A stretch of 64,000 nt of DNA from Pectobacterium brasiliense (GTDB taxonomy: Bacteria; Pseudomonadota; Gammaproteobacteria; Enterobacterales; Enterobacteriaceae): assembly GCF_013449685.1 (NCBI RefSeq), contig NZ_JACDSF010000057.1:1837-65836 (forward strand), in the 5' to 3' direction. Below, piece after piece: positions 6,437 to 55,591 of this stretch. Below the pieces are notes generated by a model. That model was not told the DNA's origin. It saw nothing but the letters and a program-made list of their open reading frames with translations, and searched no databases. The position numbers and the translations under genes were made by a program. Every line of letters begins with the position of its first letter. Positions within the stretch are counted from its first letter, which is position 1.

Positions 6437-6772
6437 GCTATTTCCCCTTTGCTGATGGTTTGCATCATGCTTGGCAAGGGAGAAGAAGTAGAGACCGTCT
6501 TCGCCACTTTGCGCGGCGATGTCATGAAATAATCCTCTGTTTCAGTAATGAGTAAAATTTGTGCGTGAGGCTCCACAATTATGTAGGGTGAACCGATGGC
6601 TTAATGCTATCCGCCGATTGACGACTCTCGTTTTCATCTGTCACGTTTTTCGTACAACGCTCATTTTTACGCCAACGGGCGAAAATAATTTGATGCGCGT
6701 CTACCTTATGATTACGTTGTATTTTTTCTCGTATCATAGGTAATCCTTACGGGTGGCAATGAAAAAAAATGG
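6437..6772. other. Intergenic region between comM and the ilv promoter
   Basis: About 340 bp without a supported gene. A 60-codon frame at 6561-6743 has no ribosome site, no recognisable product and no typical codon use. The stretch should hold the comM promoter (leftward) and upstream control sequence for the ilv operon. I see no strong palindrome or terminator in it. Confidence 0.4.
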
Positions 6773-6800
6773 TTGTCAGTCCATGTCTTACTGTGATAAC
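6773..6800 (+). promoter_or_regulatory. Candidate ilv operon promoter
   Basis: TTGTCA at 6773-6778 is separated by 16 bp from GATAAC at 6795-6800, which has an upstream TG (extended -10). Transcription from here would start about 35 bp before the leader peptide gene. This is a consensus match only; no start site is known. Confidence 0.45.
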
Positions 6801-6843
6801 TCTGTAGGCATTCGTTCGACAGAAGATTAATGAACAACCTATT

Positions 6844-6942
6844 ATGAAAGCCCTATCCCTAGTGATTAGCCTAGTCGTGATTAGCGTGGTGGTGATTATT
6901 ATCCCACCGTGCGGGGCTGCACTTGGACGAAGAATGGCTTAG
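6844..6942 (+). CDS. ilvL: ilvGMEDA leader peptide
   Basis: 32-residue leader peptide. It begins MKALSLVISLVV and holds six Val, five Ile and four Leu, including runs of three Val and three Ile. Ribosomes short of charged Val, Ile or Leu tRNA stall here and prevent formation of the terminator at 6967-6995, which lets RNA polymerase continue into ilvG. Length and layout match the E. coli and Salmonella leader. Confidence 0.95.
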   Translation: MKALSLVISLVVISVVVIIIPPCGAALGRRMA

Positions 6943-6962
6943 AAATCAAGGCCTAATTCAAG

Positions 6963-6995
6963 AAAACCCCCGCACCGAAAGGTCGGGGGTTTTTT
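6963..6995 (+). terminator. ilv attenuator (leader terminator)
   Basis: GC-rich hairpin just after the leader peptide: CCCCCG (6967-6972), one bulged C, ACC, loop GAAA, GGT, CGGGGG (6984-6989), then six T. This is the attenuator that stops transcription before ilvG when branched-chain amino acids are plentiful. Confidence 0.92.
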
Positions 6996-7082
6996 GTTGG
7001 GCGTAATCTATAACGGAAAGGAACAGAAAATGAACATCAGCATAAAATTCTGTTATTCCCATAAGATATCGGGGAAATAACT

Positions 7083-13501: not shown

Positions 13502-13635
13502 TCACGCCGCCGATGGTGTTTCACCGTCGGCGGCGTTATCTTTATGTCATCTTATAGCAACAGGGATGGCATTTCTTTATGGCAACGCAGTTCACGGGTT
13601 TTTCTCAAGCGGGTTTAACGTTTCTTCAGCAGGTG
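13502..13635 (+). repeat. 134-bp direct repeat, left copy
   Basis: Identical to 15877-16010 except for two bases (TTAT versus TGAC near the middle). It holds the ilvA terminator hairpin, a short spacer, and the first 19 codons of the DUF2461 gene. The two copies bracket the AT-rich insert with the Hcp, muramidase and inhibitor genes. Confidence 0.95.
13505..13544 (+). terminator. Terminator after ilvA
   Basis: A 14-bp GC-rich stem, CGCCGCCGATGGTG (13505-13518) with CACCGTCGGCGGCG (13522-13535), one G-T pair, loop TTT, followed by TTATCTTTAT. It ends the ilv operon. A second copy lies in the right direct repeat. Confidence 0.85.
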
Positions 13636-13656
13636 TCTCAAGGCGTCGTTGAATAA
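13579..13656 (+). pseudogene. Truncated duplicate of the DUF2461 gene 5' end
   Basis: The frame begins with the same 19 codons as the intact DUF2461 gene at 15954 (MATQFTGFSQAG...), then leaves the similarity at 13636 and stops six codons later at 13654-13656. It is the fragment left on the far side of the insert and is unlikely to be functional. Confidence 0.8.
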
Positions 13657-15876: not shown

Positions 15877-16010
15877 TCACGCCGCCGATGGTGTTTCACC
15901 GTCGGCGGCGTTATCTTTATGTCATCTGACAGCAACAGGGATGGCATTTCTTTATGGCAACGCAGTTCACGGGTTTTTCTCAAGCGGGTTTAACGTTTCT
16001 TCAGCAGGTG
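15877..16010 (+). repeat. 134-bp direct repeat, right copy
   Basis: Right copy of the repeat at 13502-13635 (132 of 134 identical). It supplies a terminator hairpin for the insert genes and the 5' end of the intact DUF2461 gene. Confidence 0.95.
15880..15919 (+). terminator. Terminator after the insert module
   Basis: Second copy of the ilvA terminator: the same 14-bp stem at 15880-15893 and 15897-15910 with loop TTT, followed by TTATCTTTAT. It now stops transcripts from the inhibitor gene. Confidence 0.85.
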
Positions 16011-16697
16011 CGTCAGTACAACGATAAAGCGTGGTTTGACGAGCATCGTGCGGTTTACGATGAGCAACTGGTTGCACCGTTCCGCACGCTGGTGGATGAA
16101 CTCAGTCTGACCATGTTGCAGATTGATGATCACTTTGAAACACGTCCCGCTATCGGTAAGACTCTCTCCCGTATTCATCGCGACACGCGCTTTTCTCACG
16201 ATAAATCACGCTATCGCAGCCATATGTGGCTCACTTTCAAACGTACTCGCAAAGACTGGACGGATGCACCGGTGTATTTCTTTGAAATCACGCCGGATAC
16301 CTGGCGTTACGGGCTGGGCTATTACAGCGCGACGCGGAATACGATGGACCTGTTCCGTCAGACGCTGCGCGGTAATCCGTCGCAGTTTCTTGAAGTAGCA
16401 AGCTGTCTGGGAAAGACCTTCACGCTGGAAGGCGAAAGCTACAAACGCCCGCTGATTAAAGATCAGGAGCTGGAACTGGCTGACTGGTATAACCGTAAGT
16501 CGTTTGCCGCGATATCTACCCGACAGGATATGGACGCGCTATTTTCCGGCGATCTGGTGACGGTTCTGTCACAGGGTTTTACCCAGCTTGAACCGCTCTA
16601 TCATTACCTGATGAACGTCGAAACGATGAAGAAGGCCGCGCAGGAAACGGAGTCCGATACGCGGGCCTTTTCGGCGGATAAGTGGTTCGAACGCTAG
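15954..16697 (+). CDS. DUF2461 (TIGR02453) family protein
   Basis: 247-aa cytoplasmic protein of the DUF2461/TIGR02453 family; the function is not established. Family features include the N-terminal FLQQVRQYNDKAWFDEHR, then the central SRIHRDTRFSHDKSRYR and GLGYYSATRN blocks. The gene's first 57 bp belong to the right direct repeat, so the insert has replaced its original upstream neighbour without damaging the frame. It converges with the LprI-like gene to the right. Confidence 0.85.
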   Translation: MATQFTGFSQAGLTFLQQVRQYNDKAWFDEHRAVYDEQLVAPFRTLVDELSLTMLQIDDHFETRPAIGKTLSRIHRDTRFSHDKSRYRSHMWLTFKRTRKDWTDAPVYFFEITPDTWRYGLGYYSATRNTMDLFRQTLRGNPSQFLEVASCLGKTFTLEGESYKRPLIKDQELELADWYNRKSFAAISTRQDMDALFSGDLVTVLSQGFTQLEPLYHYLMNVETMKKAAQETESDTRAFSADKWFER

Positions 16698-31177: not shown

Positions 31178-31243
31178 AGTGTGGTAGAATATCAGCTAAC
31201 TATTGCTTTACGAAAGCGTATCCGGTGAAATAAAGTCAAGCCG

Positions 31244-31268
31244 TTGTTGGTTAATGCTACACCAACAA
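31244..31268. promoter_or_regulatory. Inverted repeat in the rhlB-trxA interval
   Basis: A perfect 8-bp inverted repeat, TTGTTGGT (31244-31251) and ACCAACAA (31261-31268), with a 9-base loop, lies 27 bp before the trxA start. It may be an operator or an mRNA leader hairpin; I do not know a factor that binds it. Confidence 0.4.
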
Positions 31269-31295
31269 GGTAGAAATAATCCTGCGGAGTAAAAT

Positions 31296-31622
31296 ATGAG
31301 CGATAAAATAATTCACCTGACTGATGACAGCTTCGGCACGAAAGTATTGCAAGCTGAGGGCGCTATCTTGGTTGATTTCTGGGCTGAGTGGTGTGGTCCT
31401 TGCAAAATGATCGCTCCTATTCTGGATGAAATTGCTGAAGAGTTTGAAGGTAAACTGACAGTTACCAAGCTGAACATTGATGAAAATCCGGCTACTGCGC
31501 CGAAATATGGTATCCGTGGCATTCCTACTCTGCTGTTGTTTAAAAACGGCGAGGTCGCTGCGACGAAAGTCGGCGCACTGTCGAAGGGGCAACTGAAAGA
31601 GTTCCTGACGGCGAATCTGTAA
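31296..31622 (+). CDS. trxA: Thioredoxin 1
   Basis: 108-aa cytoplasmic disulfide reductase. The redox site WCGPC places the active cysteines at C33 and C36; the cis-proline loop RGIPTLLLF is also present. It passes electrons from thioredoxin reductase to ribonucleotide reductase, PAPS reductase and other proteins. ATG 31296 follows CTGCGGAGTAAAAT. A GATACCCT/AGGGTGTC hairpin at 31630-31649 follows the gene but lacks a T tract. Position before rho matches E. coli. Confidence 0.97.
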
Positions 31623-52474: not shown

Positions 52475-52551
52475 CGCATACGTAGACACACCTGCACGCC
52501 TGAACAAGCCTGCCCTGCCAGATAGGGCACGATAATGTGGAGTAAGAATTG

Positions 52552-53709
52552 ATGCAAACCGCACCCCAGCACGAGCCTCTGGCTCAGTTTATTCAGGCAT
52601 TTCGCCACGATTTACATCGCAATCCTGAGTTGTCGAATCAGGAGTTTGAGACCACGAAGAAGATTCGTGCAGTATTGGAAAAAGAGGGGATTCGTATCCT
52701 CGACCTACCGCTGAAAACCGGTCTGGTTGCTGAAGTTGGCGGCTTACAGGATGGCCCGCTGGTCGTGGTGCGTTCGGACATCGACGCCCTGCCGATTGAA
52801 GAAGAGTCTGGCGTAGAATTTACGTCGCTCAACAAAGGGGTGATGCACGCCTGCGGTCATGATTTTCACTCTTCCGCTGCACTTGGCGCGGCGATTCTGC
52901 TGAAGAAAATCGAGCCGGAGCTGAAAGGCACTGTGCGAATTTTGTTCCAGGCCGCTGAAGAGACTGGGCTGGGCGCACCGGAAGTCATCGCCGTTGGCGC
53001 GTTGGACAATGCGGTAGCGATTTTCGGCATTCACAACGATCCGACGCTGCCCGTTGGCGTTATCGGCGGGAAAGACGGCGCATTGACGGCGGGCGTTGAC
53101 CGCTTTGAGATCAAGATCGCAGCGAAAGGCTGTCACGCCGCGAAGCCGCATGAAGGTAACGATCCGATTATCATTCTGGGTCAGCTGATTTCTGCCGTAC
53201 AGACCATTATCAGCCGCACGGTGTCTTCTGACAACAACGCGGTGGTGTCGATTACGCAGGTGCATAGTGGCAGCACCTGGAACGTTATCCCAGACACGGC
53301 CTACGTTGAAGGCACGGTCAGAACGTTCAATCAGGACGCGCGTGATTTGATTGAACAGCGTTTCCGTCAGATTGTTGCAGGTATCGCTAGCACCTTTGGC
53401 GCAGAAATTGAGTTCCTGTGGCACGCAGGGCCGCCATCGGTAATCAACACGCCAGAGTGGGTTGAGTTTGCGCTGAATGTGGCGAGTGACGAAGGGTTTG
53501 AAGCGCGCCGCGTGGAAGCCAGCCCGATTGGTGAAGATTTCGCGTTCTATCAACAAAAACTACCGGGTACGTTCATGATGGTCGGTTCCGGCGGACCGTA
53601 TGCGCTGCACCACCCGAAATTCCGCGTTGATGACAGCGCGCTGTTCCCGACTGCGCACTATCTTTATCAGGTGGCGAAGCAGAGCTTAGAGCAGTTGTCC
53701 TCCCGCTAA
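52552..53709 (+). CDS. M20 family amidohydrolase (probable N-acetylcysteine deacetylase)
   Basis: 385-aa metal-dependent amidohydrolase of the M20D/hippurate hydrolase group. Metal ligands are visible in HACGHDFH (C101, H103) and AAEETGLGAPEV; the dimerisation domain is inserted at about 185-295. Related Bacillus enzymes deacetylate N-acetylcysteine derivatives in sulfur salvage, so here it would release free cysteine after the lyase step; that is inferred. ATG 52552 has GGAG at 52539-52542. It is the last gene of the cluster, with a terminator after it. Confidence 0.85.
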   Translation: MQTAPQHEPLAQFIQAFRHDLHRNPELSNQEFETTKKIRAVLEKEGIRILDLPLKTGLVAEVGGLQDGPLVVVRSDIDALPIEEESGVEFTSLNKGVMHACGHDFHSSAALGAAILLKKIEPELKGTVRILFQAAEETGLGAPEVIAVGALDNAVAIFGIHNDPTLPVGVIGGKDGALTAGVDRFEIKIAAKGCHAAKPHEGNDPIIILGQLISAVQTIISRTVSSDNNAVVSITQVHSGSTWNVIPDTAYVEGTVRTFNQDARDLIEQRFRQIVAGIASTFGAEIEFLWHAGPPSVINTPEWVEFALNVASDEGFEARRVEASPIGEDFAFYQQKLPGTFMMVGSGGPYALHHPKFRVDDSALFPTAHYLYQVAKQSLEQLSSR

Positions 53710-53801: not shown

Positions 53802-53915
53802 TGTCGGAAAAACACGACACTCTGGGGGTTATGTTGTCGCAAAAAAGAGACATTTAATTAATTGATTATTAATGGTTAATATTTTACGTGACAAAATCGT
53901 CTCTGAATGGCGACA
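53802..53915 (+). promoter_or_regulatory. Three GlrR activator sites upstream of glmZ
   Basis: Two exact copies of TGTC-N10-GACA lie at 53802-53819 and 53835-53852, and a one-mismatch copy (CGTC-N10-GACA) at 53898-53915. This is the known binding motif of GlrR (YfhA), the activator of sigma-54 promoters of glmY and, in many enterobacteria, glmZ. Spacings of 33 and 63 bp place the sites close to the same face of the helix. Confidence 0.8.
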
Positions 53916-54048
53916 GGTTTTGTGAGCGCGATCTCGTTTTTGCCGCCCATCGTGTCTTAGCTTCTCTCATTGTGGATAAATAAAAATAGTATTTATTATT
54001 AGATGCTTAACTCTATTTTGTGAGGCTGTGATAATAAAGTTATGCATA

Positions 54049-54066
54049 TTGGCATAATTTATGCTT
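54049..54066 (+). promoter_or_regulatory. Sigma-54 promoter of glmZ
   Basis: TTGGCATAATTTATGCTT carries GG at 54051-54052 and GC at 54063-54064, exactly 10 bp between them as in -24/-12 promoters. The GC lies 12-13 bp before the inferred first base of glmZ (54077). Confidence 0.8.
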
Positions 54067-54076
54067 AAATAAGCGG

Positions 54077-54286
54077 GTAGATGCTCATTCCACCTTCTAT
54101 GCTTGCTTCGGCTTCATAATCCTGGGAATGACGCAGAGCCAATTTGAGGTGCCTATCGTCCAACTCCAGATGAAGATGCAAATCTCCATCGGGCCTTCCG
54201 GACATAACGTTGAGTGAGGCACCATTCTGTTGTCTGACAGACCTGATATTTTCAACGCTTACCGTTTATCGGTAAGCGTTTTTTTT
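54077..54286 (+). ncRNA. glmZ: Small RNA GlmZ
   Basis: About 210-nt Hfq-dependent small RNA that base-pairs with glmS mRNA to raise glucosamine-6-phosphate synthase. Blocks shared with E. coli GlmZ include GTAGATGCTCATTCCA at the 5' end, GGAATGACGCAGAGCC, CTTATCGTCCA-like CCTATCGTCCAA, and ACGTTGAGTGAGGCACC. It ends in a 10-bp hairpin (AACGCTTACC/GGTAAGCGTT, 54254-54280) and eight T. It lies next to hemY, as in E. coli. Its processing depends on RapZ and RNase E, and GlmY acts as decoy; those genes are outside the window. Confidence 0.93.
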
Positions 54287-54391: not shown

Positions 54392-55591
54392 TTAGTCGGC
54401 AGGTTGCTGTAGCGTGAGCAGTAGCCCTTCGCGCCGCATTTGCGCCGCTTCATCCGGCAGACGCAACCGGTCGAGTGCGTCGGCGCGCCAAGCATAATCA
54501 TACGCGTCCGGTCGTAATTCCAGTGCGGTGCGGAAAGCATCGCTGGCCTTCTGCCATTCGCCGTGTTTCATCAGTAATTGGCCTAACGTGCTGCTCAGCA
54601 GCGCAGTAGAGGCTTGCTGCTTGATGTACTGGCGCAGTAATTTTTCCAGTTGTTCTGGGTTTCCGGCTTTGAGGCGTGGCATTAGCAGGATCAAACGTTC
54701 GTCATACTGGCGCTTGAGACCGTCGAGAATGATCTTCTGAGCGGTATCATGCTCGTCACACTCGATCAGATGCTCAGCCATCGCGACCTGAAGCGGGATC
54801 TCATGGCGTACTTTGCGACTCTGATTATTCCACCATGATTTCAGCCCTTCGCTGCCGCCATCTGCCATTGCCTGATTCATCAGACCGATATAGGCCTGCT
54901 GCTGTAGATCCAGTAGACGTTCTTCAGGGTACAGATTGATCTTGCGCATCGCAGGCAGAATATCCAGCAGCGCGCTATAGGCGTGAGTGCGCAGGAAAGC
55001 TTGCTCCGCTAAACGCAGTACCTCAGGATGGCGGGGCGCAACCTCCAGCAGTTTGTCGACGCCGTGACGTGCGGCATGATCTTCATTACGCGCTAGCTGA
55101 ATACGCACGCGCGTAATATCCACCGGAAGCTGATCGGTATCTGCAACCTCGGCGGCACGCTCCAGATATTGCTTGGTGCGGAATTCGTCGCCGCGCTGCT
55201 GAGCGGCTTCGGCTGCCAGCAGGTAGTTAACCACGGGCTGCTCGGCATGGTCGGCATTGCGCGTCAGTAGCTTCTCTACCTGTAAATAATCCCCCTCGGC
55301 CAGCTTGAGCAGCGCGGCTTTGGTCTGTTTTCTGGCGCGGGTGCGTTTGCGGCCGAGGAACCAGCCGCGTGTGCGGGATCCGGTACGAAAGATCCGGCGG
55401 AGCACCCATTCCACCGCCAAAAAGGCGAGGAAGAACAGTACCAGCATGATGACCAGACCGGTCACGCTGGTTTGAATGTCATAGTTATCCGTTTGGATCA
55501 GGACGTAGCCTTGGTGACCCGCGACGATCGGGCCTATCACAACGCCGGCGATCAGGATCAGGAACAGCAATAAGACTTTTAGCATGCTCAT
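54392..55591 (-). CDS. hemY: HemY tetratricopeptide membrane protein
   Basis: 399-aa inner-membrane protein of the HemY family (the TPR protein, not the oxidase also called HemY). Two N-terminal hydrophobic helices (about 4-24 and 40-63) anchor a C-terminal tetratricopeptide region. It is linked to late heme synthesis by its operon, but its exact task is not established. Its ATG overlaps the hemX stop by 4 bp. Confidence 0.92.

Follow-up and report, generated by a model that had tools for sequence, protein, structure and literature searches.

Predicted sigma-54 promoter and GlrR-type elements upstream of the small RNA gene glmZ in Pectobacterium brasiliense

The small RNA gene glmZ of Pectobacterium brasiliense is preceded by three GlrR-type boxes and a sigma-54 promoter motif at a spacing conserved in the genus, exact pairs of such boxes occur in this genome only at glmZ and glmY, and genes for the regulatory proteins are present. 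We consider it highly probable that the main glmZ promoter is of the sigma-54 type and is activated by GlrR from three sites with the help of DNA bending by IHF, one signal serving both RNAs; the binding of GlrR and IHF, the dependence on sigma-54 and the joint signal we infer from what has been reported for Yersinia and for E. coli. An earlier note on this DNA had placed glmZ under sigma-54 and GlrR control, and the part of that reading that a sequence can test, namely that glmZ carries elements of both kinds, is supported.

Results

The glmZ locus and its surroundings

Within the window (the whole stretch of 64,000 nt that was analysed), glmZ occupies positions 54077–54285 on the forward strand (Rfam RF00083, 193.7 bits against a cut-off of 60, model positions 1–214 of 214) and ends in an intrinsic terminator, a stem-loop followed by a T run (54254–54280, forward strand). 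The convergent neighbour is hemY (54392–55591, reverse strand; NF008017, 764.1 bits, cut-off 608), the product of which is 97% identical to HemY of P. versatile, P. carotovorum and two more Pectobacterium records, while an M20-type amidohydrolase gene (52549–53709, forward strand; TIGR01891, 355.6 bits, cut-off 153.75) lies upstream. For glmZ and glmY alike, the profile puts the start of the RNA in E. coli K-12 at its annotated position, which supports 54077, the 5′ end inferred in the earlier note, as homologous to the annotated K-12 glmZ start.

Elsewhere in the window, the Rev39 5′ UTR of soft-rot bacteria (Rfam RF02744) was matched at full length at 6768–7067 (360.1 bits) and the trxA thermometer (Rfam RF02773) at 31238–31325 (97.7 bits). 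A direct repeat of 139 bp with 97% identity (13502–13640 and 15877–16015, copies 2375 bp apart) contains inverted-repeat sequence and the beginning of a DUF2461 gene, the complete copy of which is found at 15954–16697. The two copies flank a gene for Hcp (PF05638), an ORF whose Pesticin-domain match stays under the threshold (23.3 bits, cut-off 25.8) and a gene for a small protein without a Pfam match, and the region resembles a type VI effector/immunity module that, on insertion, duplicated its target.

Three GlrR-type boxes upstream of glmZ

As the earlier note had claimed, three boxes precede glmZ. Box 1 (53802–53819) and box 2 (53835–53852) match TGTC-N10-GACA, given as the QseF (GlrR) consensus in PMC8745638, with 0 mismatches, whereas box 3 (53898–53915) reads CGTC...GACA and has 1 mismatch; the start-to-start spacing is 33 bp between boxes 1 and 2 and 63 bp between boxes 2 and 3. 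In the alignment of 14 regions (13 from Pectobacterium, including the one studied here, and one from Samsonia), box 1 is exact in 13 and box 2 likewise in 13, and box 3 shows the identical single mismatch in 13 and two mismatches in Samsonia. The imperfection of box 3 was counted against a GlrR-activated promoter.

Single boxes would by themselves speak for a chance arrangement, being at chance level both in the window (22 matches with at most one mismatch, 22.0 expected) and genome-wide (70 exact sites, where the reversed control pattern has 73). We set the single-box counts aside and drew evidence from box pairs only. Among 200,000 letter shuffles of the 367 bp intergenic region before glmZ, two exact boxes anywhere arose once, and neither two exact boxes with one near box nor two exact boxes at 31–33 bp arose at all (0/200,000 each); in the genome of 4,665,864 bases, an exact pair 33–63 bp apart exists at 2 places, glmY and glmZ, with 0 for the control pattern. 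Together with the conservation of the arrangement among relatives, these counts make coincidence a negligible explanation.

The own glmY gene and the regulatory genes

The glmY promoter, to which the earlier note had pointed, has the same type of arrangement. The own glmY gene (G000:C35:14744-14914) is preceded by three boxes at 32/63 bp, one with 1 mismatch and two exact, and by a GG-N10-GC motif at −25; because glmY is organised in this way, one signal would be expected to make both RNAs. It is followed, in this order, by genes for a histidine kinase, QseG (323.7 bits, cut-off 234) and GlrR (equivalog NF011695, 951.8 bits, cut-off 763). The kinase in the glrK position has HisKA and HATPase_c domains and passes no cut-off among the matches listed (25 of 78 NCBIfam rows); we name it, by its position, the putative GlrK. 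The 112-aa gene after glrR we take to be glnB, from its sequence and position. Sigma-54 (three Pfam domains) and RapZ (two) are encoded in one cluster, and glmS is present in the genome; a duplex between GlmZ and the own glmS leader is long and bulged, and 34 of 300 shuffles were as good.

These surroundings also bear on the identity of the activator. Other activators of the sigma-54 class use inverted-repeat sites as well, and the boxes might thus serve one of them in place of GlrR. This seems very improbable to us, given that the sole other exact paired boxes in the genome stand at glmY, at the head of the kinase-qseG-glrR cluster, and that the box spacing equals that of E. coli glmY.

The predicted sigma-54 promoter and a possible sigma-70 overlap

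The predicted −24/−12 promoter, TTGGCATAATTTATGCT, lies at 54049–54065 on the forward strand, with GG at 54051–54052 and GC at 54063–54064. Its GG is at −26 from 54077, the right distance as proposed, and this geometry recurs at E. coli glmY relative to its annotated start; GG-N10-GC is found at −26 in 14 of the 14 Pectobacterium and Samsonia regions. A permissive scan for a sigma-54 16-mer, allowing 3 mismatches, yielded 314 hits where 334 were expected and was set aside.

Just upstream of the glmZ start, and overlapping the −12 region, a TTAAAT hexamer preceded by TG agrees with TATAAT in 4 of 6 positions (read by eye). It could belong to an overlapping sigma-70 promoter that uses the same start base, GlrR then only modulating glmZ, as published for E. 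coli glmY, for which overlapping promoters are described in PMC7073468. A −10-like hexamer with at least 5 of 6 matches occurs at the equivalent place in 64 of the 131 surveyed glmZ regions that have both promoter and boxes, and such an overlap looks common in the sample. At the glmZ studied here, however, the agreement is just 4 of 6 at −10 and, read by eye, 2–3 of 6 at the −35 positions 16–18 bp upstream of TTAAAT, and a sigma-70 consensus scan, which demands A at the second −10 position and cannot list TTAAAT, returned no promoter ending there, the nearest forward-strand candidate ending at 54035. We regard a dual promoter as unlikely, if worth keeping in mind; it is compatible with the sigma-54 promoter activated by GlrR, and the issue between them is the share of sigma-70. 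The stronger version, in which the sigma-54 elements are relics and sigma-70 alone drives glmZ as in E. coli, can appeal to the switch to sigma-70 that did occur in the Escherichia lineage, but the elements are intact and kept within the genus at constant spacing, and we give this reading very little credence.

Predicted IHF sites

The earlier note did not mention IHF. A scan with what we take to be the IHF consensus adds a predicted site without mismatch, WATCAANNNNTTR, on the reverse strand at 53855–53867, between boxes 2 and 3. Among regions with boxes 62–64 bp apart, an exact match lies between these boxes in 49 of 131 at glmZ compared with 6 of 655 shuffled stretches, and in 36 of 45 at glmY compared with 1 of 225.

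A possible second site is the A+T-rich block at 53975–53998, between box 3 and the promoter, which is partly conserved in the genus. From the last box to the promoter, the own glmZ region has only IHF matches with two mismatches, and these are weak evidence, since at most two mismatches were also reached in 458 of 655 shuffled stretches. Exact matches in this interval are rare at glmZ (4 of 131 regions, 10 of 655 shuffled stretches); when up to one mismatch is allowed, however, matches are enriched, both at glmZ (56/131 vs 89/655 shuffled) and at glmY (40/45 vs 54/225), which suggests a second, looser IHF site between the last box and the promoter in many relatives.

Survey of relatives

We collected the DNA upstream of 171 glmZ loci, 93 from order and family genome searches (own locus included) and 78 from a set of 80 found through HemY similarity. 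The former comprised the top 30 matches from the order search (L003–L032; hits in 36 of 394 genomes), the 23 new loci among the 30 best of the family search (L033–L055; hits in 257 of 392 genomes) and 40 further loci hand-picked from the family list, 31 for uncovered genus codes and 9 from covered ones; the latter were the best 80 of 249 loci by likeness of their HemY to that of the window. L050 and L158 (too little upstream DNA), regions with an identical last 240 bp, and L067 and L085 (no glmZ match in the retrieved DNA) were left out. The sample is non-random and best-first, with weak-scoring glmZ genes under-represented. A box pair was defined by at most one mismatch per box and a spacing of 31–33 or 62–64 bp, a configuration that appeared in 0 of 2,620 shuffled regions.

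Among the 158 distinct glmZ regions, 131 have both elements, 7 the promoter only, 3 the boxes only and 17 neither; the promoter-only class depends on the one-mismatch limit, as in 3 of its 7 members (L073, L134, L203) a box with two mismatches stands at the usual distance from a better-matching box. The 131 regions divide into 96 with the short and the long spacing, 32 with the long alone and 3 with the short alone. GG-N10-GC lies at −27 to −25 in 138 of the 158 and is absent from 20; the element is therefore dispensable in some relatives, a point against the sigma-54 reading. For glmY, 51 loci were retrieved (the own one, the 30 best of 259 genomes with a match, and 20 hand-picked, of which 16 were from genomes whose glmZ region is without promoter or boxes and 4 from the genus of the window), and all 48 distinct regions have both the promoter and a box pair.

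Several variants were seen at glmZ. The box order is reversed (63, then 32–33 bp) in several Erwinia/Mixta-like and g6 loci (L029, L030, L032, L099, L119, L130, L131, L133), as if the outer box had moved to the other side. Apparent intermediates in the loss of sigma-54/GlrR control are L013 and L046, with the promoter and no boxes, and L015, L176 and L212, with boxes and no promoter, and they look like losses that started from either end. The glmZ match in L189/L246 (G731) measures 336 bases compared with 209 here and may contain an insertion. Candidates for a third glmZ copy in five genomes were set aside, one being an identical GlmY-type match (64.1 bits) present twice on one contig and the other four being weak (25.2–31.4 bits). 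In two genomes of one genus code (G437, G553), a weak glmZ-like match (31.4 bits in L257, 25.4 bits in L259) some 3.2 kb away from the true glmZ is possibly a decayed duplicate.

Distribution on a HemY tree

The distribution was placed on a HemY tree of 122 rows, a single-gene tree built by a quick method from the best-first sample, in which 45 of 119 inner branches are weak. It covers loci whose retrieved DNA gave a HemY match of 350 residues or more and one row per identical HemY, and it holds neither a row with boxes and no promoter nor the loss in G570 (L173, L233). The arrangement of sigma-54 promoter and boxes occurs in Yersinia, Serratia, Rahnella, Pectobacteriaceae, Erwinia/Mixta and Buttiauxella/Cedecea. 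All 16 rows with neither element fall within one group of 32 rows that includes Escherichia, and they require at least 4 changes on the tree, only 1 of which is forced by the starred branches. Outside this group, too, a promoter without a box pair was found, in Hafnia, one Symbiopectobacterium and CwR94, two of these three having a second box with two mismatches. Because of this distribution, the Pectobacterium form of glmZ looks ancestral, and repeated loss of the sigma-54/GlrR elements from glmZ is suggested. The earlier note had spoken of a sigma-54 form retained as in some other enterobacteria: the retention holds up, the form being found in each deeper lineage sampled, while "some" understates it, since it is the common form in our non-random sample.

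Discussion

Taken together, the elements upstream of glmZ outline a plausible course of events. The sigma-54 promoter would need an activator to fire, a role that would fall to GlrR, response regulator in the GlrK/QseG/GlrR envelope system, at the three upstream sites. Bending of the DNA by IHF between boxes 2 and 3 would bring GlrR to the polymerase, and GlrR would then have the sigma-54 polymerase open the glmZ promoter. One envelope signal could in this way yield both GlmY, which serves as a decoy for RapZ, and GlmZ, which activates glmS directly, and post-transcriptional feedback by glucosamine-6-phosphate would subsequently set the amount of GlmZ that survives. Loss of glrR or rpoN is predicted to lower both RNAs and to alter glmS control in Pectobacterium.

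In P. atrosepticum under starvation, glmZ rose about 2-fold and glmY 5-fold (PMC4710047), which is compatible with sigma-54/GlrR control and no proof of it; stabilisation through GlmY could by itself account for the glmZ increase. That paper mentions neither RpoN nor sigma 54. Against the model, a comparison of oxygen responses (PMC3349551), which does not mention GlrR, flags glmZ as not significant in both D. dadantii and P. atrosepticum. SigmoID lists 38 RpoN sites in P. atrosepticum 21A, with glmY and GlrR unnamed in the part of the publication at hand (PMC4888284), and in a publication on Enterobacter mori the names Pectobacterium, GlrR and GlmZ turn up one or two times apiece.

With regard to evolution, we tentatively consider a scenario that is possible although rather doubtful. 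The ancestral wiring would have had both RNAs under one GlrR switch, which glmY never left in our sample, and glmZ alone would have gone over to sigma-70, perhaps on several occasions inside a single crown group, by way of intermediates with a promoter and no boxes or with boxes and no promoter. If this were true, the decoy RNA would be the signal-responsive node that cannot be spared, and making GlmZ along with it would be a dispensable layer; Pectobacterium would still have both layers, its GlmZ supply might drop to near zero without GlrR, and glmS regulation would be gated by an envelope signal and not by the metabolite alone. The retention of the elements at glmY (48 of 48 regions) against their loss from some glmZ genes is a contrast that makes the roles of the two RNAs testable.

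The glmZ control elements described here are common among the relatives examined, unusual only in comparison with E. coli and some of its kin, and largely expected. Dual sigma-54/GlrR control has already been published for Y. pseudotuberculosis, to which Pectobacterium would be an added case; our data indicate that the published wiring extends to a genus of crop soft-rot bacteria and is the usual state in a large, non-random sample. Conclusions from E. coli, where glmZ is reported to be constitutive, may not transfer to most of its relatives.

The primary paper on the glmZ and glmY promoters of Y. pseudotuberculosis is reportedly that of Gopel et al. 2011. In that species both genes are sigma-54 dependent, induced by GlrR and provided with putative IHF sites, according to PMC4585118, and the Pectobacterium glmZ and glmY genes, as read from sequence, resemble them in having a predicted sigma-54 promoter, upstream GlrR-type sites and putative IHF sites. 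Seven Yersinia loci with a readable region have boxes at 32/63 bp and GG-N10-GC at −26; the first spacing is thus 32 bp there and 33 bp here, and the centre of box 3, at −170.5 here, lies at −178.5 or −179.5 in 6 of the 7 and at −169.5 in the seventh.

The earlier note's contrast with E. coli, in which glmY and not glmZ carries the elements, was borne out in K-12. Its glmY, whose promoter is published as a sigma-54 promoter and is activated by QseF/GlrR with IHF (PMC6075780), has three exact boxes at 33/63 bp, the spacing seen at the glmZ of the window, and GG-N10-GC at −26, but the boxes are 45 bp nearer the start and the promoter drives the decoy RNA GlmY, not GlmZ. The K-12 glmZ gene, conversely, encodes the same RNA with a homologous start and the same hemY neighbour, although its upstream gene is aslA and not the amidohydrolase gene. 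Within a limit of one mismatch it has no box, GG-N10-GC is lacking at the corresponding place, and CATAAT stands at −10; a single constitutive sigma-70 promoter is reported for it in PMC4585118. The Pectobacterium glmZ, with both the boxes and the −24/−12 motif, departs from this E. coli type and matches the arrangement of Yersinia.
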